In this document: positions 41,674 through 60,605 of the stretch, in pieces
How the letters are laid out: each line of letters begins with the position of its first letter
Numbering within the stretch: the first letter of the stretch is position 1
Origin: Bdellovibrio sp. BCCA
GTDB taxonomy: Bacteria; Bdellovibrionota; Bdellovibrionia; Bdellovibrionales; Bdellovibrionaceae
Reading direction: 5' to 3'
Assembly (NCBI RefSeq): GCF_037996825.1
Contig: NZ_JBBNAC010000001.1
Location: forward strand, 62,001-126,000
DNA length: 64,000 bases
The notes under the pieces: generated by a model
Databases searched by the model: none
What the model was told of the DNA's origin: nothing
The model's input: only the letters and a program-made list of their open reading frames with translations
Made by a program: the position numbers and the translations under genes

Positions 41674-41939
41674 ACTCAAAAACACTTCAAGTGCCATGCC
41701 CTGTCAGAGGGAAAATAGCGTCTTTTTACGAGAAGAAACTGTCTCAGCCTTAGTCAGCAGACGAATTTGGGAAAAGCTTGTTGGACCCCATAAAGTGTAA
41801 AACCAAAATTGTCTCAAAGTAACACGTTTGGGCTTCGGGAATGCGTCAGATCCCATATATTGCAAATGAGTCATCTTGCAGGCGGCACAACCCTTGTAAT
41901 ATGGCCTTCTGGAATTGTGGACGTCTGTTGGAGGAGCTC

Positions 41940-50006: not shown

Positions 50007-50136
50007 AGGAACTCCTTTGTAACGAGTACAAAAAATATAAATCTACTCAGAAGAATGCTAATGCATCGGATGTGCCATAAAGTTCGTCTCAAAACGAGAC
50101 ACCAAGAGCAAAATCAACCAACTTTGAGACAAAATA

Positions 50137-50507: not shown

Positions 50508-52163
50508 TTATAGATACAATTCCGCTGTTGCAGGGGCAATAATATCTAGCAGGTTGTTGAATGTACTTGCAACTTGCATAGCAACAGAAGGACCTTCTTT
50601 GCTATCCACTTTGTTGATATCCCCATTTGGTTTATAACTTACTACAATTGTTCCAAGACCAGGACGAGTGACGATGGAAGGTTTTCCATAACGCTCTTCG
50701 TATTCAATCTTAACAACTTTTTTTGCATGATCCGTGATTGTCGCAATACGACCACGGTTATCGTAAGTCATATTGATTTTTTGACCGTCACTATTTTGCG
50801 CATAAGTCAGATTGCCCTTGGCATCGTACTTAAACTGCGTGTTCTTCACAGAGACCTTAGCCCCTTTTTCATTAAAGAACGTGCTAGTAACAGCGCTGAC
50901 TTTTTTGATCTTTGGATCATACTCAAACGCCATACGCACATTGGGAGCCGCTTTTACTTTTACAAGTCCATCTGGATAGTACTCGTAAGAAACGCGATCG
51001 GCGTTACGACGGATGGAAACCGGTTTTCCAAACACGTCATGATAAGTGATATCCGTCACATTGCCGTTGACTGTCGTCATCACTCTTTGCAGGAAGTATT
51101 GACCGTCAGCGCGTTGTTGGTGCCAGAATTCGTATTTGTTATCTGCCATCACTTCTTTGCCGCAAGTTTTCTTCACTGTCGACCAATAGTGATTTTTAGG
51201 GTCGTTAGCAGAGAATTCGTATTTATAAGACTCTAAACACTTGTCACGACCTGCAAACGCTGTCACCCAGTCGTTCTTTTTATCGTATTTAATTGCGATA
51301 AAAGTTTTATCCGGCCAAGTTGCTTTTGTGAGATTGTGAAGTTCGTCGTATTCGTAAGTATAAGTTTTCAACCAAGCGTTCTTTACAGAAGCAAGGTCAT
51401 CTAAATTTGCAAACTTATAATCCGCCATCAAACCGTTCGGGCCTGTGATGGATTTTACTTTTTTGTTTTGATAGTACTTAAAGTTCAAACGACGGCCGTT
51501 GTTGTCTTGAATAGAAGCGATCACGTCTTTGTCGTAATCAAACTTCAAGAAGTTGCCGTTTTTATCATAGATATGAGTCAATTTTCCTTGCGGGCTAAAG
51601 CGTTGAGCACTGCCGTCTGGAAGATTGCGTGTGTAATATGTTTTGTTGAAAACAAAGTGTTCAACTTCGCGACCGTTTGCATAGAACTTCGTACCTTCTT
51701 TAACAGGAACAGAAATTCCATATTTTGCCGCGAACTCAGAGCGAGCGCTGTCATCTTCAAGAAGCTGAGTTTTCAAACTCGTCAAGTAAGCCTCTGTCAG
51801 ACCCACTTTCTTTTCAGCTTTCATTTTAGTGATGATTTGAGCAATTGTGTTTTCCACATCTTTGCGTGTGACTTCGCGAGGAGCAAACGTCACTTCCAAA
51901 CCGCCACCACATTCTTTAACTTTGATATTTCCTTCAGCGTTGACTTCCATCGCTGTTTCGAAATCTGAGCACCATCCGAAACCAAACATACCATTGAAAA
52001 GTGAACGGCTGTTGTAAGTGCGCACGATTTTCAAATCGTAACCGCTGCCTGGCACATCCATATCAATCCATGTATTGGAGTAGTTGGCATTTTTCATATC
52101 AACAAGCGCGTAAGCTTGTGCTGAAAAAAGAAAAGCGAACGCCAAAATTGCCTTCTTCATCAT
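50508..52163 (-). CDS. Secreted RHS/YD-repeat protein linked to the Tad operon
   Basis: 551 residues from the ATG at 52163, with GAGGG eight bases upstream and a signal peptide (MKKAILAFAFLFSAQAYA). The start resembles the DUF6531 domain found at the head of RHS proteins (GYDLKIVRTYNSRSLFNGMFGFGW). YD-type repeats follow through the rest (THIYDKNGNFLKFDYDKD, NMTYDNRGRIATITDHAKK). There is no RHS core end (PxxxxDPxG) or C-terminal toxin, so it is a short structural form. It starts 31 bases after tadB on the same strand with no hairpin between, so it is probably transcribed with the pilus genes. Its link to the pilus is inferred from position only. Confidence 0.85.
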   Translation of the reverse strand: MMKKAILAFAFLFSAQAYALVDMKNANYSNTWIDMDVPGSGYDLKIVRTYNSRSLFNGMFGFGWCSDFETAMEVNAEGNIKVKECGGGLEVTFAPREVTRKDVENTIAQIITKMKAEKKVGLTEAYLTSLKTQLLEDDSARSEFAAKYGISVPVKEGTKFYANGREVEHFVFNKTYYTRNLPDGSAQRFSPQGKLTHIYDKNGNFLKFDYDKDVIASIQDNNGRRLNFKYYQNKKVKSITGPNGLMADYKFANLDDLASVKNAWLKTYTYEYDELHNLTKATWPDKTFIAIKYDKKNDWVTAFAGRDKCLESYKYEFSANDPKNHYWSTVKKTCGKEVMADNKYEFWHQQRADGQYFLQRVMTTVNGNVTDITYHDVFGKPVSIRRNADRVSYEYYPDGLVKVKAAPNVRMAFEYDPKIKKVSAVTSTFFNEKGAKVSVKNTQFKYDAKGNLTYAQNSDGQKINMTYDNRGRIATITDHAKKVVKIEYEERYGKPSIVTRPGLGTIVVSYKPNGDINKVDSKEGPSVAMQVASTFNNLLDIIAPATAELYL

Positions 52164-52194
52164 TATCGGTACCCTCTTCCTAGAAACTGACAAA

Positions 52195-53070
52195 CTACAC
52201 TTTAATGGTAACAAGCTTTTTAATGACTATGCCACCGATTATTTGCAGACCAAGCATCATAAACAACAACACTAGACCTAGGGTTGTGTTAAACATTGGT
52301 TTGATAAAACCCGGGTCTATCACCATAAAGACGGCCATTAAGATAAATGGAATCATGGTGACGATAATTCCTTGCATGAGGCCTTGTGCAGTCAGAGCTT
52401 GAATTTTTTTCTCTACTTTTTGTCTTTCACGAATGACCGTGACGATAGTCTGGAAAGTCTCCGCCAAGTTACCGCCGGTCTCTTTTAAAATATTGATCGA
52501 CGTCACAAACATCTGAACGTCAGGACGGGGAATGCGCTGGCCTAAATCATTCAGCGCACTTTCAAAACTGTCACCCACTTGCATTTGATAAAGAACTTGC
52601 GCGAATTCCTGACTGATAGGATTTCCCATAATCTCTACCACACGCTTCATGGACTCTTGAGGATTGGAGCCGGCTTTAATACCGTTAGCCATAATAGTAA
52701 GACCATCCACCATTTGGTCCACGAATCGTGTGCAACGTTGTTCGTAGGTGAGTTTCACAACAAACAAAGGCAACTGCCAACCACCGACAGTGATAGCGGC
52801 ACCAAAAATAAATCCGATAAGAACGCTTGGCCAAACAGCCAAGAAAACCAAAGCTCCCATACCAAAACTCACCAAGAGAATCAGAATGGTGATTTTCTTT
52901 TCGTTCACGTCGTTCCCCATCAAACGAAGCATGCGAATCACCTCATCACGCTGTCCAAGACTGCGCTTATGGAGCCACGCAATTGTTTTGTCAGCCCAAA
53001 GGATAACAAAAACAAAAACGCAGATTCCAAAAAGAGGGATTAACACCCATTCGTTAGCGAGAAACTTCAT
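52195..53070 (-). CDS. tadB: Tad secretion inner-membrane platform protein TadB
   Basis: 291 residues. The T2SSF (GspF) domain is seen in the centre (DQMVDGLTIMANGIKAGSNP, then ILKETGGNLAETFQTIVTVI), with two helices near the N-terminus and two near the C-terminus (GIIVTMIPFILMAVFMV, LVLLFMMLGLQIIGGIVI). TadB forms the platform with TadC under the CpaF ATPase. No tadC gene follows here, where it is usually found; it must lie elsewhere or be absent. The gene begins 3 bases after the fused cpaEF gene. Confidence 0.92.
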   Translation of the reverse strand: MKFLANEWVLIPLFGICVFVFVILWADKTIAWLHKRSLGQRDEVIRMLRLMGNDVNEKKITILILLVSFGMGALVFLAVWPSVLIGFIFGAAITVGGWQLPLFVVKLTYEQRCTRFVDQMVDGLTIMANGIKAGSNPQESMKRVVEIMGNPISQEFAQVLYQMQVGDSFESALNDLGQRIPRPDVQMFVTSINILKETGGNLAETFQTIVTVIRERQKVEKKIQALTAQGLMQGIIVTMIPFILMAVFMVIDPGFIKPMFNTTLGLVLLFMMLGLQIIGGIVIKKLVTIKV

Positions 53071-53073
53071 GTT

Positions 53074-55299
53074 CTACCCCGATTTTTTCACCGGTGCGAC
53101 ACCTGGCATTTTTGGCAGAGCACCCAATGGAGATTTAGGAGCACCCGCTGCTGGAGCACCTGGAGTTGCCGTCGCAGGATCATTCGAGAAGATCTCACGC
53201 GGAATCACAACACCTTTGTCGCTCAATTTTTGGATGAAGCTTGGGATTGTACCAGTGGCCTGGAACACACCCTGAATTTTTCTATTCTTATCGTAACCTG
53301 TTTCTTTAAAGCGGAAGATCTCTGCCAACGTCACGACGTCACCTTGCATACCGGCAACTTCAGTGATGCTTAAGATCTTACGGCTACCATCTGACAGACG
53401 AGAAATCTGAACAATCAAATTCACCGCACCCGCGATTTGTTCACGGATCGCACGAATTGGAAGCTCCATTCCCGACATCATACAAAGAGTTTCAAGACGG
53501 GCAATACACTCACGCGGACTGTTGGCGTGAGTCGTTGTCATAGAACCATCGTGACCTGTGTTCATGGCTTGAAGCATGTCTAGTGCGGCACCGTCACGGC
53601 ACTCACCGACGATGATACGGTCAGGACGCATACGTAGGGCATTCTTAATCAAATCACGAATGGTGACGGCGTTGGATCCTTCCATTGAAGCAGGGCGTGT
53701 TTCCAGGCGGACCACGTGCTCTTGTTGCAGTTGCAACTCGGCCGCGTCCTCGACTGTGATCACACGTTCATTCGACGGAATGAAAGACGAAAGCATATTC
53801 AGAAGCGAGGTTTTACCGGAACCAGTACCACCCGAGATCACGATATTCAAACCGTTCTCTGAACAAATGCGAAGGAAGTCGATCATGTTCTTCGTGATAC
53901 TTCCGTAATTGATGTACTTCTCAGGTGTGATACCACCTTTTTTAAATTTACGAATTGTTAAAGCTGGTCCGTCGATAGCCAGTGGCTCAATCACGGCATT
54001 CACACGGGAACCGTCTTTTAAACGCGCATCCACGTAAGGAGTTGAGTCATTGATCTGACGACCTAGTGGAGTCACGATACGCTCGATGATACGGCGAAGG
54101 TGATCATTCGATGTGAATGTCACGGGACTTAATTGAACTTTACCGCTTTTCTCGACAAAGATTTTTCTAAAACCATTCACCATGATCTCGGTAACATCAG
54201 GGTCAGCCAGAAGATCTTCCAGGGGACCTAATCCCAAAGCTTCTTCTAAAACCTCTTTAATAATTTTAGAACGCTCTTCACGGGCAAGATCCGGAGCCTC
54301 TTTATCGACAATCAGAGTGATTTCTCTTTTTGTTTTTTCGCGGATTTCTTTTTCTTTTCCTTCATCTTGTTTTGTATCAAGCAAAAGCTTTTTTAAATCC
54401 ACGGTACGAATTAATTCGTTGTGCACGCGGATTTTTAAGAGTGTGCGCGCATCCATTCCTGCCGTTGCCGCAGCCCCAGCGGAAGCTCCACCCGCAGCAG
54501 CTTCTGTGGCAGCCGGTGCTGGTTTAGGGCGAGCAATTGTTTTAAGTCTTTGCAGGATGCCGCCCGTCAATTTGCGGGTGACATCATAATACGCCGCTGT
54601 GACTGGAGCTTTAGGAGCTGACAACACAAACGGAGTGTACTTTTGCAGAGCCATCATCGATGTGGCTTCATCCTGCGGAATAATTCCTACGTAAGGTAAT
54701 TGCAATTGATTTGAAATCGTTTGCGGAGAAAGACCTGTCGGTGAAGCTTTGTTAATCACAAGCTGGAACATGTCTTTCGGAAGAGTTGCCGAAAGAAGTT
54801 CATTCACCAAGCGTTGAGTTTGTGTGACAACCAATACTTCAGGGCTAGTCACGATCATGATCGCTGTGGCTTCTTGTAGAACAGCCATTTGCGCGGGACC
54901 TAAATCAGTTCCCACGTCGACGATCACAAATTTAAATGCACGACTGAAAAACTCTAAAAGTTTTCCCAAAAGATCAGGAGAGATATTTAAAGATTCTTCC
55001 GGTCCACGAACCGCGCCTAAATAAGCTAAACCCGATTGGTGCATTGTCACCAATGTGTTCATGGGTTGAGAATTCAAAGAGCCTTGGAAGCTCGCAAGTT
55101 CTTTTAAAGTCTTTTGCGGTTTTAAACCCATGATAACGTTTTGATCGCCGACGCTCTTCGCGTCTGCATCGATCAAAAGCACTTGGGCTCTGAGTTCGTT
55201 CATGATGGTGCATGCAAAGTTCGCGGCAAAAACGGACTTACCGACGCCGCCTTTACCACCGACTACAGCGATGAGATTACAATTAGGATTGATAGCCAA
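53074..55299 (-). CDS. Fused CpaE/TadZ-like and CpaF/TadA ATPase
   Basis: 741 residues. Residues ~1-245 are a ParA/MinD-type ATPase of the CpaE/TadZ kind (Walker A GGKGGVGKS at 13-21, VLLIDAD, FVIVDVGTD). A Pro/Ala/Gly-rich linker (~255-285) leads to a complete CpaF/TadA secretion ATPase (~290-680) with Walker A SGGTGSGKTS near 490, the Asp box region VITVEDAAELQL, Walker B RIIVGECRDG and the His box TTTHANSPRE. A Pro/Ala-rich tail ends the protein. The two functions are usually separate proteins. Its start is TTG at 55299 with GGAGG six bases before it. The site lies in a hairpin with a sigma-28-like -10 box in its loop. Confidence 0.93.
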   Translation of the reverse strand: MAINPNCNLIAVVGGKGGVGKSVFAANFACTIMNELRAQVLLIDADAKSVGDQNVIMGLKPQKTLKELASFQGSLNSQPMNTLVTMHQSGLAYLGAVRGPEESLNISPDLLGKLLEFFSRAFKFVIVDVGTDLGPAQMAVLQEATAIMIVTSPEVLVVTQTQRLVNELLSATLPKDMFQLVINKASPTGLSPQTISNQLQLPYVGIIPQDEATSMMALQKYTPFVLSAPKAPVTAAYYDVTRKLTGGILQRLKTIARPKPAPAATEAAAGGASAGAAATAGMDARTLLKIRVHNELIRTVDLKKLLLDTKQDEGKEKEIREKTKREITLIVDKEAPDLAREERSKIIKEVLEEALGLGPLEDLLADPDVTEIMVNGFRKIFVEKSGKVQLSPVTFTSNDHLRRIIERIVTPLGRQINDSTPYVDARLKDGSRVNAVIEPLAIDGPALTIRKFKKGGITPEKYINYGSITKNMIDFLRICSENGLNIVISGGTGSGKTSLLNMLSSFIPSNERVITVEDAAELQLQQEHVVRLETRPASMEGSNAVTIRDLIKNALRMRPDRIIVGECRDGAALDMLQAMNTGHDGSMTTTHANSPRECIARLETLCMMSGMELPIRAIREQIAGAVNLIVQISRLSDGSRKILSITEVAGMQGDVVTLAEIFRFKETGYDKNRKIQGVFQATGTIPSFIQKLSDKGVVIPREIFSNDPATATPGAPAAGAPKSPLGALPKMPGVAPVKKSG

Positions 55300-55304
55300 T
55301 GCAG

Positions 55305-55338
55305 ACCTCCATTTCCTTTATCGGCTGAAATGGGAGGT
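55305..55338 (-). promoter_or_regulatory. Hairpin over the ribosome binding site of the cpaE-cpaF fusion gene
   Basis: On the minus strand ACCTCCCATTTC (55338-55327) pairs with GAAATGGAGGT (55315-55305), one base unpaired. The 3' arm holds GGAGG for the TTG start at 55299. RNA reading through from upstream would fold and hide the site; RNA begun at the -10 box inside the loop would lack the 5' arm. Confidence 0.6.
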
Positions 55339-55346
55339 CCGTTTAC
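55318..55346 (-). promoter_or_regulatory. Sigma-28-like promoter upstream of the cpaE-cpaF fusion
   Basis: GCCGATAA (55325-55318), identical to the E. coli FliA -10 consensus, lies 16 bases after TAAA (55345-55342). The flp promoter has the same TAAA-N16-GCCGATA arrangement. Transcription would start near 55311. Confidence 0.6.
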
Positions 55347-55369
55347 GAGATGTTAGTCGCGTAAACGGA
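55338..55369. promoter_or_regulatory. 10-bp inverted repeat across the cpaC stop and the -35 box
   Basis: TCCGTTTACG (55338-55347) and CGTAAACGGA (55360-55369) are perfectly inverted around 12 bases. The repeat includes the cpaC stop codon region and the TAAA of the proposed sigma-28-like promoter. It could be an operator or an RNA hairpin after cpaC. Confidence 0.5.
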
Positions 55370-56882
55370 ACTTCTTCTTAATTTGCTCAGCTCCCGAGCT
55401 CGCAGAAGTTTTCACGATGGGCGTAACAAAGACCACAAACTGGCTTTGTTGTTTTATGAAGTCTTTAGATGCATACAAGCTGATGATCGGGTTCTTTTGT
55501 CCAGCTGGACGATTGTAACCTGTCGAAGTGGAGTTGCGGATCAAACCACCCACAGCCGCACTTTGACGGTCACGCACAGTCACCGTACTCGACATTTGGT
55601 TCTTACTCACAATCGGTGCCCCTTGCGGAGTATTACCCAACAAGCTGCTCACTTCAAAACTCATCTCCATGTGCACACTTCCGGATTTTTCACCCAAAAG
55701 CACAGGTGTGATACCAGTCACGATACCGACAGAGGCAAACGCCGTTCCTTGAGTACCGTCTTTACCGATCACTGGATATGGTTGGTCAGTCACCTGTTTG
55801 ATTTCACCTTTTTTACCGTCTTCCACAATCAAGCTTGTACTTTCAAGCACGCGCGCATGACCGTGTTGTTTTGCCCAATTGAGCTTCGGTAACAAGTTAG
55901 AAACAGTTCCTGTGATAGAGCTGATCACACCACCTGGGCTGTCGCCACCTGTTTGGAAAGTCATTTGCGAGTTGTCACCCAATTCAGGAGTGAACTGGAA
56001 CTTAAATGCTTTCGAGTAGTCTTTATTCAATTCCACATAGTGCACAACAAGCTGAATCATTTTTGCTGGTGGTTTTGCCGGAGCTTCCTTAATTTGAATA
56101 AGGTTGATCACACCGTCATTCGCAGGCTTACGTTTTTTAATCGGACCACCATCTTCCGCGGCATCGATCACGATGTCAGGAAGATAAGTTTTTGCCACGA
56201 TCTCGGCACGTTTTGATTCTTCTTCACTATTCGCCCAACCTTGAAGAATGATTTTGTCATTCACGGCACGGACTTCGATCTCGGGGTTGTTGATATCACG
56301 AGCGATAAACTCTGCAATTTTCTTCTGCGCAAGAGGACTCAAGGTCACAAGAGAAGAAGCCTGGTCACCGAATTGTTTGATAACGTTGTAGATACGCGCA
56401 AGGTCTTTTGGCAAAAGGATCTGACCGTCAACAACAACTCTGTTGTTCACGATTTTGATATTGATACCTTCGATATCACCCAAAAGCGCACGGATTTCGC
56501 GGACGACTTTGTCGAGCTTGCTTTTCTTAACGTCAATACGGAATTCCGCAACGACTTTACCATTGCGTTTATCGTGAATCGTCAACGTCGCAAACCCCTC
56601 TGCTTTAGGAGTAAAGCGCATGACATTTAAATCTTTAGCGTAAGCCGCCGTCACGATACGACGGAAGTCTCCTTTGAATTCAATATCATTGGGAAGAGGC
56701 GGAAGTTTTTCGTCCTGCTCAATACCCAAAGTGAGGTTGATGAATTTGCGGGAGCGATAGACGCCAGTTCCTTCATCCGCTGTTGCCGAAGACGGTTCTG
56801 CGACAAGTTCTTCTTGTGCAAAAGCGACATGACCACAGAGGCTGAGGAAAAGTCCCGTCAGTAAAATGTGTCGTTTCATCAT
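55353..56882 (-). CDS. cpaC: Tad outer-membrane secretin CpaC/RcpA
   Basis: 509 residues. A signal peptide (HILLTGLFLSLCGHVAFA) is followed by an N-terminal pilus-assembly domain, a BON-like domain (NPEIEVRAVNDKIILQGWA) and the secretin domain (~330-480; SSLIVEDGKKGEIKQV, VGIVTGITPVLL, TVTVRDRQSAAVGGLIRNS and FVVFVTPIV). It forms the ring through which the Flp pilus passes the outer membrane. It lies 34 bases after cpaB. The start ATGATG has AAGGGGG upstream, like flp. Confidence 0.95.
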   Translation of the reverse strand: MMKRHILLTGLFLSLCGHVAFAQEELVAEPSSATADEGTGVYRSRKFINLTLGIEQDEKLPPLPNDIEFKGDFRRIVTAAYAKDLNVMRFTPKAEGFATLTIHDKRNGKVVAEFRIDVKKSKLDKVVREIRALLGDIEGINIKIVNNRVVVDGQILLPKDLARIYNVIKQFGDQASSLVTLSPLAQKKIAEFIARDINNPEIEVRAVNDKIILQGWANSEEESKRAEIVAKTYLPDIVIDAAEDGGPIKKRKPANDGVINLIQIKEAPAKPPAKMIQLVVHYVELNKDYSKAFKFQFTPELGDNSQMTFQTGGDSPGGVISSITGTVSNLLPKLNWAKQHGHARVLESTSLIVEDGKKGEIKQVTDQPYPVIGKDGTQGTAFASVGIVTGITPVLLGEKSGSVHMEMSFEVSSLLGNTPQGAPIVSKNQMSSTVTVRDRQSAAVGGLIRNSTSTGYNRPAGQKNPIISLYASKDFIKQQSQFVVFVTPIVKTSASSGAEQIKKKFRLRD

Positions 56883-56916: not shown

Positions 56917-57840
56917 TTACAAAGTTTGAAATCCATTGCCGCGAGGTCTTTGTGCCGGCGGAGGAGCAGTTCTTTGTTGTTGTACTGGTGGTGTATAAAC
57001 AGGTCGCTGAGGTACTGCGATCGGTGGTGCCGCAACAGGAGGTGCACCGTCTAATGCTACCACAGGTCGTCCCATAACTGAATCCGAAGTTGAGCTTGGC
57101 ATTCTTGGCGGAACCGTTCTGTCGCTCGGATTTCTAAGAGCGAAGAACAAGTTTCCAGGAGCTGTCGAAAGAATATAAAACAGATCCTGAGCTTCCTTCG
57201 GAGTCGCTTCCACTGTGATTGTCGTATATTTCGTGTCACCGGTTAAAGCGATTTGAGTTAAGTTTTTACCAGATGAATCCAATTCAAACATACGTGGAAT
57301 GTTGTTCACAACACTCACACCTGTTGCAAGCACAACAACGTCGGACATCATCGTGAAAACTTCACGACGTTGTCCGATACCCTTACCTGTATCCACAGCC
57401 GCAAAGATATCTACACGGTCCCCTGGACGAATGAGTTTCGCAACACCGCGCACTTCATCCACAGGAATGGTTACGGCGCGCTTACTAGGAGCCACTTGTA
57501 AAGCAATCCCCGTATCAGGACCCGGAGTTAAAAGATTATTCTTAAGAACCATTTGGCCTTTACGAATAGGGACAGCTGCCACGTTACCGATGATTTCATC
57601 AGGAATAGTGATAGCGTCTGGTTGAATAAAGTCAGCAGGAAGTTCTTTTGTTTCAACCATTGTATCATAGATCGTTTGCATTTCTGCGATGTCTTCTTTG
57701 GCAACAACCACACGCTTAGTAGAACCGAAACGCTTGTCGTATTCGGCTTTCTTCTCTTGGGAGTAGCTGTACAGCAGGAACGTTGCAAAAACGCCTGCTG
57801 CGATGGAAAGCCAGAGATTTCTTGTATCGTTCGATCCCAT
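56917..57840 (-). CDS. cpaB: Flp pilus assembly protein CpaB/RcpC
   Basis: 307 residues. An N-terminal membrane helix (LWLSIAAGVFATFLLYSYS) is followed by an SAF domain (VVVAKEDIAEMQTIYDTMVE) and the RcpC domain (KRAVTIPVDEVRGVAKLIRPGDRVDIFA). The C-terminal ~60 residues are Pro-rich (PPVAAPPIAVPQRP) and may contact the secretin. It lies 16 bases after the TadE-like gene. Length and order are usual for CpaB. Confidence 0.94.
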   Translation of the reverse strand: MGSNDTRNLWLSIAAGVFATFLLYSYSQEKKAEYDKRFGSTKRVVVAKEDIAEMQTIYDTMVETKELPADFIQPDAITIPDEIIGNVAAVPIRKGQMVLKNNLLTPGPDTGIALQVAPSKRAVTIPVDEVRGVAKLIRPGDRVDIFAAVDTGKGIGQRREVFTMMSDVVVLATGVSVVNNIPRMFELDSSGKNLTQIALTGDTKYTTITVEATPKEAQDLFYILSTAPGNLFFALRNPSDRTVPPRMPSSTSDSVMGRPVVALDGAPPVAAPPIAVPQRPVYTPPVQQQRTAPPPAQRPRGNGFQTL

Positions 57841-58992: not shown

Positions 58993-59246
58993 TGACCTTC
59001 CGGTTTCACCGTATTGGATCGATCAATCTGGTTAGGGTGTTGCTTCCGAGCTTTATCAGGAGCTTCCCAAACACCAGCTTCGATCATTCCGGATATTTTT
59101 GTCCAAGGACCAGCAATCAGCTTCGCGAGAAACTTGTTGTCGCGCGCATAATTTGTGGCCCACAGAAATGCACTGACCGTGACCACCAACAAGAGAACGC
59201 CCTCAATGACAAATTGTCCTTTGCGGTTACGTAAAGGATTTATCAT
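58989..59246 (-). CDS. Small pseudopilin
   Basis: 85 residues. The leader MINPLRNRKG is followed by QFVIEGVLLLVVTVSAFLWA with Glu at +5, a prepilin-type cleavage site. The short polar tail is charged (APDKARKQHPNQIDRSNTVK). It overlaps both neighbours by 4 bases. Its size is between a pilin and a TadE protein; function is inferred from motif and position. Confidence 0.75.
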   Translation of the reverse strand: MINPLRNRKGQFVIEGVLLLVVTVSAFLWATNYARDNKFLAKLIAGPWTKISGMIEAGVWEAPDKARKQHPNQIDRSNTVKPEGQ

Positions 59247-59434
59247 TGGTCACCTTCCCACTTGATCTGCTGACCACGCTCGGGCTTGAATCCGTCGCCT
59301 GTTGCCAATTGTTGTTCGATACGCGCACCAAGACGCGGGCCGGATTCTTTGAATGCAGCCGCAGGGGCTGAGAGAAATGCTTTCAGCCCAATGCTAAAGA
59401 TCACAATTAACAAAAGAACGTATTCAATTGTCAC
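59243..59434 (-). CDS. Small Flp-like membrane protein without leader
   Basis: 63 residues from a GTG with AGGAGG five bases upstream. The start MTIEYVLLLIVIFSIGLKAF resembles a mature Flp pilin (the EY pair before the hydrophobic helix) but the usual basic leader ending in Gly is missing; an in-frame stop lies a little upstream, so it cannot be extended. The tail is polar (RIEQQLATGDGFKPERGQQ). It may be a minor pilin-like subunit placed in the membrane without processing. Confidence 0.7.
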   Translation of the reverse strand: MTIEYVLLLIVIFSIGLKAFLSAPAAAFKESGPRLGARIEQQLATGDGFKPERGQQIKWEGDQ

Positions 59435-59462: not shown

Positions 59463-59651
59463 CTAGTTAGAGATCACGTTACCCATGTCGGCGCCAAGTT
59501 TTTCCATCGCACCGTTAACTTGCTCAGTGATTTTTCCTTTGAACATGAGCACCAATGCAACTACCACCACTAGCAAAAGGATGTATTCAGTCGCGCCTTG
59601 GCCTGACTCTTTTTTCAATAGATTCTTAGAAAAGTTTTTGAACTTCTTCAT
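59463..59651 (-). CDS. flp: Flp pilin
   Basis: 62 residues. The leader MKKFKNFSKNLLKKESG is followed by QGATEYILLLVVVVALVLMF, with Glu at +5 and Tyr at +6 after Gly17, the class III cleavage pattern cut by TadV/CpaA. The mature pilin would be ~45 residues, a single helix with a short tail. It is the first gene of the Tad operon. The ribosome binding site is AAGGGGGA, and a sigma-28-like promoter lies just upstream. Confidence 0.93.
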   Translation of the reverse strand: MKKFKNFSKNLLKKESGQGATEYILLLVVVVALVLMFKGKITEQVNGAMEKLGADMGNVISN

Positions 59652-59672
59652 AGATGTTCCCCCTTAAACACA

Positions 59673-59701
59673 ATATCGGCTAATTTTGGGATTCTCTTTA
59701 G
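59673..59701 (-). promoter_or_regulatory. Sigma-28-like promoter of the flp/Tad operon
   Basis: On the minus strand CTAAA (59701-59697), 16 bases, then GCCGATAT (59680-59673), ending ~21 bases before the flp ATG. This fits the FliA consensus (TAAA-N15-GCCGATAA) with one extra base. It suggests expression together with flagellar late genes. The remaining 59702-59831 holds no gene I can support. Confidence 0.65.
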
Positions 59702-59831
59702 ACTGCGGATTACAAAAGTGACTCCATTGCACATCTCATTTTGAGAATGCAGGCTTGAACCCTTTTGGCGAGAGTTTGAAAAAATGGTGATCTTTTAAAC
59801 AGTCGAGCTTTGCGTGGGTTTTAGAGGGATC

Positions 59832-60605
59832 TTAGAAGTTTTCGACCAGTCTTTGGTCAGGCTTTTTACTGCCTACAGGAATCAAAAAAAGAAAACTGAG
59901 ACTTATCATCGCCAATGAAAACGGAAAAATATCGGAAAGAAAAACCCCAAAACCCGCATGGAGAACGAAAACGGCCAGGACTCCGAGTTTTGGTTTTTTC
60001 CAAAGAAGAACGGGAAGAAAAAGTTCCGTCAGGATGACGATCACTGATACGGCCGAATAAATCCAGTTCACCGCAAACTGATGACTGAACAAACTTTGGT
60101 CCATCATTTTGAGCGTTTCTCCAGAGGGAAACTGATCAAACATTTTACTAACGGCCGAGAACAAATAAACGAGCAAAATCTGCCATTTTAGAAACACCAA
60201 CGTGTCGTTTCTTTCGTCAGCTGTTGTTTTTTCCAAAGAAGGACCCAGCGAAAGACCGATAGCCATCAATAGTAAGAGAACTTTTTGATTTTGAAACATC
60301 TGGGAAAGACTCATGAGAAGACCGAACAAAGATAAGAGAGCGCCCAGACGCGTTTTCTTAATGAGCAAGAACAAAGCTCCCAATAAAATCAGCGCCCATT
60401 CGATCAACAAAATATAAGGTGGGTAAATTGGAATCGCCTCTATAAGAAGGCGAAACGGAAAAGTGTCTCCCTGATGAATACTCCAGCGATGAAGTTCAAA
60501 AATATCACTGAGCACACGGCTTACCAAAGCGGCGGCAAAGAAGCCGTAAAAAGCCCGTAAGCACGAAACTTTATTGAAGGTCACAAGTGGGCGTCTTAAA
60601 GACAT
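59832..60605 (-). CDS. Polytopic membrane protein, HTTM/DoxX-like
   Basis: 257 residues with about seven hydrophobic helices (YPPYILLIEWALILLGALFLL, VLLLLMAIGLSLG, WIYSAVSVIVILTELFLPVLL, AMISLSFLFLIPVG). The pattern SAVSKMFDQFPSGETL followed by helices and LAVFVLHAGFGVF recalls the HTTM (vitamin-K-dependent carboxylase-like) membrane proteins, but catalytic residues cannot be named. It overlaps the previous gene by 35 bases, so the two are coupled. Confidence 0.65.
   Translation of the reverse strand: MSLRRPLVTFNKVSCLRAFYGFFAAALVSRVLSDIFELHRWSIHQGDTFPFRLLIEAIPIYPPYILLIEWALILLGALFLLIKKTRLGALLSLFGLLMSLSQMFQNQKVLLLLMAIGLSLGPSLEKTTADERNDTLVFLKWQILLVYLFSAVSKMFDQFPSGETLKMMDQSLFSHQFAVNWIYSAVSVIVILTELFLPVLLWKKPKLGVLAVFVLHAGFGVFLSDIFPFSLAMISLSFLFLIPVGSKKPDQRLVENF

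Follow-up and report, generated by a model that had tools for sequence, protein, structure and literature searches.

The box that stands upstream of flp is, with a probability that we put at about 0.93, a promoter from which RNA polymerase carrying FliA (sigma-28) transcribes the Tad/Flp pilus operon of Bdellovibrio sp. BCCA, with the pilus made in motile attack-phase cells. The pilus would then be produced alongside flagella and further surface proteins of the attack phase. Positions given here are those of the window, by which we mean the whole stretch of 64,000 nucleotides that was analyzed (Table 1). Read on the minus strand, the box consists of a CTAAA -35 element (59701-59697), a 16-base spacer (GAGAATCCCAAAATTA, 59696-59681), and a -10 element (GCCGATAT, 59680-59673); the flp ATG lies 21 bases downstream, at 59651, and transcription of the operon would be expected to start at about 59664-59667. 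The box thus combines a TAAA-type -35, a CCGATA-type -10, and a spacing within the 15-16 bases of sigma-28 promoters, and its spacing is also that of the attack-phase consensus, TTAAG-N16-CCGATA. The genome encodes a single FliA-family protein to read it, full-length and the only match over the cut-off of TIGR02479 (281.8 bits).

Table 1. Features of the tad region, in window coordinates, with the basis for each assignment
Feature	Position	Strand	Basis
Tad operon sigma-28 promoter	59673..59701	-	-35/-10 boxes, shuffles, conservation
Palindrome ATCTCATTTTGAGAA, proposed operator of a second regulator	59733..59747	.	10/12 match to GTCTCA-N3-TGAGAC
flp (flp1), Flp pilin	59463..59651	-	Pfam Flp1_like E 2e-11; GQGATEY motif
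flp2-like trimmed pilin, N-terminus MTIEYVLL	59243..59434	-	fits MXXEY of Flp2 in PMC5430801
Small membrane-anchored tad gene, 85 aa	58989..59246	-	no Pfam family
Pseudopilin-like tad gene, 217 aa	58339..58992	-	no Pfam family
tad gene, 162 aa	57857..58345	-	no Pfam family
rcpC/cpaB	56917..57840	-	RcpC E 8e-19, SAF
cpaC/rcpA secretin	55353..56882	-	Secretin E 3e-19, BON
Putative internal sigma-28 promoter before cpaEF: -35 GTAAA, N16, -10 GCCGATAA	55318..55346	-	CCGATA conservation
Inverted repeat, predicted hairpin in read-through RNA	55302..55341	-	folding: -18.7 kcal/mol, z -3.3
cpaE-cpaF (tadZ-tadA) fusion, 741 aa	53074..55299	-	CbiA/ParA-type + T2SSE domains
tadB/tadC-type inner-membrane protein	52195..53070	-	T2SSF E 2e-19

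The operon runs from 59651 down to 52195 on the minus strand, and Pfam families for Flp pilin, RcpC/CpaB, secretin, the TadZ and TadA ATPases, and TadB/C identify it as a Flp/Tad operon. The fusion of CpaE (TadZ) with CpaF (TadA) has near end-to-end matches in all 60 genomes of the order that were searched, and TadV is reported to be missing from Bdellovibrio genomes (PMC5430801). A gene at 50508-52214, with an RHS repeat and a DUF6531 domain, overlaps the end of tadB/C and may be a member of the operon.

Matches to TAAA-N15/16-GCCGATA exceed chance expectation: the window holds two, against a mean of 0.08 in 100 dinucleotide shuffles that never yielded a pair, and the whole 4.01 Mb genome holds 14, against 2 for a reversed control. 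The sequence-only reading of this DNA had described a CTAAA-N16 box 21 bases before flp and a second box with the same 16-base spacer at cpaEF, and both are present as described. With the spacing left free (TAAA-N{13-18}-CCGATA), the commonest arrangement in the genome was N16 before xCCGATA (19 of 69 matches). About three quarters of those 19 sites, and around half of the N15 sites of the same loose pattern, fall outside large ORFs and shortly upstream of a gene start; matches at the remaining spacings are mostly within ORFs. Alternatively, the flp box could be a chance match in an operon read by sigma-70 or sigma-54, since short motifs do arise randomly and a looser pattern gave 28 reversed-control matches in the genome. 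We regard this as highly improbable, however, as the box is kept order-wide at a fixed spacing, the FliA dependence of the orthologous promoter is published (PMC5430801), and a search for a sigma-70-like promoter at 59600-59900 found none.

Loss of the box before flp in relatives had been named by the sequence-only reading as the sign that would count against it. Instead, 22/22 genus genomes have CCGATA no more than 80 nt upstream of flp, as do 7/12 genomes from other genera of the family and 10/19 from other families, compared with a rate of 0.011-0.018 in random windows of the same stretches. The box is identical to that of G006 at 28 of 29 positions, and inside the genus the spacer is kept as well (AATCCC). 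Outside the genus, around half of the genomes lack an exact CCGATA in the 80 nt before flp, and some of these carry one-base variants, or a box farther from the gene. At the CCGATA sites of genomes from outside the genus, the leading T of the -35 stands at -21 from the hexamer, which corresponds to N16, at 14/14 flp sites and 17/21 cpaEF sites (binomial p 5e-8 and 2e-6, respectively, not corrected for kinship and overstating independence because the genomes are related).

The box at cpaEF, TAAA-CGGACCTCCCATTTCA-GCCGATA(A) at 55345-55319 on the minus strand and 19 bases before a TTG start at 55299, suggests a second sigma-28 promoter directly upstream of this motor gene, whose activity we infer from its form and its retention. 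CCGATA precedes cpaEF in 22/24 genus genomes, 5/13 genomes from other genera of the family, and 16/22 from other families, against a background of 1-2%, so that this predicted internal promoter is conserved across the order, with a weak -35 outside the genus. Alternatively, the box may be inactive, the operon being read from flp only and CCGATAA serving, for example, as a hairpin loop or leader. CCGATA does form the loop of a predicted hairpin in most genus genomes, and the TAD genes have been treated as a single operon led by the flp1 promoter (PMC5430801). We nevertheless consider an inactive box unlikely: the hexamer is kept before cpaEF in other families (folding covered the genus), and so is the -35 T at -21.

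The hairpin in question would form in RNA read through from flp, where CCUCC of the promoter spacer would pair with GGAGG, the Shine-Dalgarno sequence of cpaEF. In most genus genomes, the segment between the -35 and the -10 carries GGACCTCC, complementary to GGAGGTC of the cpaEF ribosome site. A similar hairpin is predicted in most of the genus, folding at -25.1 kcal/mol (z -5.0) in G006, and is missing in part of it. Covariation is weak, and any conserved RNA structure would be confined to the genomes in which the hairpin folds. Where it exists, read-through mRNA from flp would leave cpaEF poorly translated, or would couple its translation to that of cpaC, and RNA begun at the internal promoter would lack the blocking arm. 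Transcription of the phage T4 lysozyme gene e offers a parallel: transcription from its late promoter begins within a hairpin by which the longer, early mRNA masks its ribosome site. A cpaEF transcript from the internal promoter may likewise start within a ribosome-site hairpin of a longer mRNA, but here the hairpin is a folding-based proposal and is not kept in the whole genus.

The spacing of the tad boxes is not that of all FliA promoters in these bacteria. In four of the six flagellin promoter groups, conserved boxes place the T at -20, the N15 of E. coli, and their -10 is of the CCGAAA or CCGATC type. Most members of another flagellin group are N16, and the remaining group was seen in G000 alone. 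The recognizable mcp boxes are mostly N15. The proposal that fliC and mcp genes would share N16 with the tad operon, which the sequence-only reading had raised as a check, is thus not borne out. Given N15 flagellin boxes and N16 tad boxes in the same genus, one FliA appears to read both spacings. An N15 CCGATA box lies upstream of clpP (L163:828-1430, minus strand), which is among the attack-phase core genes (PMC5430801). At L003, L005, L032, L035, L154, L155, L162, and L164, the proposed start codon lies 7-13 nt after a CCGATA box, and these genes mostly have no Shine-Dalgarno sequence, as in leaderless mRNA, although a simple score was used to choose their starts, which may be incorrect.

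Genomes without flagellin and FlhA keep tad boxes wherever the promoter is readable. Among 82 genomes of the order that are at least 95% complete, four (G039, G073, G084, and G085; L306-L308, L312-L315) have no flagellin and no FlhA. All four retain a full-length FliA and a CpaE-CpaF match, which in G073 ends at the contig end, and the readable promoters (cpaEF of G085, G084, and G039; flp of G085) have a CCGATA box with T at the N16 position. Across the order, even where flagella are gone, the Tad pilus seems to stay under sigma-28 control, so the role of FliA in these bacteria appears to go beyond flagella. The palindrome described below was not found near fliA in these four genomes, nor before flp in G085, whose flp region is the only readable one among them.

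Upstream of the flp promoter lies a 15-bp palindrome of the form GTCTCA-N3-TGAGAC, which ends 52-55 nt before CCGATA in 20/22 genus genomes and is also found upstream of flp, often farther away, in many other families. In 464 kb of this genome, nine copies match at 11/12 or better (permuted palindromes: mean 1.0, maximum 6). In G000 and 7/8 genus relatives, a copy matching 10 of 12 positions precedes flgM, the gene for the anti-sigma-28 factor, at a distance of 51-55 nt, with a second, weaker copy farther upstream. In 21 genomes, the final part of the gene preceding fliA also contains a copy, matching at 10/12 or better. There, both Arg codons and the Val codon of the palindrome are invariant and the Leu codon nearly so, whereas conserved neighboring codons use an average of 3.5 synonyms. 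In other genera and families, the gene before fliA has a copy of at least 10/12 in 12 of 20 cases (permuted palindromes: mean 0.65, maximum 4), and some of these copies sit at a different codon position.

The recurrence of the palindrome before flgM and at frozen synonymous sites in the gene before fliA points to a putative second regulator. This DNA-binding regulator would act at the copy upstream of flp and at the palindromes near fliA and flgM; with palindromes shared among the three, the tad operon would answer both to FliA and to the regulator that sets FliA supply. That such a GTCTCA-N3-TGAGAC-binding protein is wired into the Bdellovibrionales sigma-28 circuit through operators at flp/tad, at flgM, and before fliA seems to us reasonably likely.

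Alternatively, the palindrome may be a dispersed repeat or structural mark rather than an operator. It is common: the 464 kb contain 39 copies at 10/12 or better, many of them away from sigma-28 boxes. Yet intergenic DNA, 7% of the total, holds 23 of these 39 copies, and distant genera have the palindrome at equivalent positions (at flp, at flgM, and at the end of the gene before fliA). The freezing of synonymous codons, together with copies at another codon position of the same gene in other families, likewise argues against a repeat, which we consider somewhat unlikely. Additional copies in the window include GTCTCAAAACGAGAC (11/12) at 50086-50100, intergenic between small ORFs, and two of 10/12 at 41741-41755 and 41811-41825, between a PGA_cap gene and a gene for a 201-aa protein with no Pfam family.

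If the operator reading is true, the regulator would govern the supply of FliA, its inhibition, and the output of Tad pili together, which would make it a control point in the attack-phase switch. The palindrome would then provide a DNA handle on how FliA is controlled and how cells change between attack and growth phases, and is the part of this analysis most worth testing. A text search of the literature, using the palindrome sequence and Bdellovibrio operator as terms, found no paper describing it.

The evidence supports sigma-28 control of the Tad operon well, and control of this kind is already known from other Bdellovibrio. FliA serves as the principal sigma factor of the attack phase in Bdellovibrio, and of 140 attack-phase promoters mapped in B. 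bacteriovorus, 92 carry the consensus TTAAG-N16-CCGATA (PMC3627812); fliA was found to be essential (PMC5430801). In E. coli lacZ assays, FliA drives the flp1/TAD promoters of B. bacteriovorus HD100 and B. exovorus JSS (PMC5430801). The sequence-only reading, which had put the Flp pilus under sigma-28 and so tied it to attack-phase cells, was therefore right on both counts, but what it proposed was known (PMC3627812, PMC5430801). The HD100 (bd0109-bd0119) and JSS operons are the same as the present one, with flp1 and a trimmed flp2 first and a FliA-dependent flp1 promoter (PMC5430801), the difference being that ours comes from another species. No mention of an internal cpaEF promoter, the palindrome, the N15/N16 split, or flagella-less genomes was found in the accessible portions of that paper. 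The HD100 attack-phase promoters share the spacing and -10 box described here, with T at -21 from CCGATA, but the consensus there is pooled (PMC3627812), whereas here the flagellin boxes are mostly N15 and the tad boxes N16.

The E. coli sigma-28 consensus, TAAAGTTT-n11-GCCGATAA, has the same boxes at a spacing of N15 (PMC2859248), so that both tad spacers are one base longer than in E. coli, as the sequence-only reading had noted. That an activator can work with sigma-28 has a precedent in E. coli aer, which is activated by CRP (PMC2859248), although CRP binds there at -49.5, whereas the flp palindrome would be centered at about -74, as estimated from box distances. Sigma-28 control of the Tad pilus in this genome thus confirms, in another species, a case published for close relatives, to which our analysis adds a putative internal promoter and a palindrome shared with fliA and flgM.
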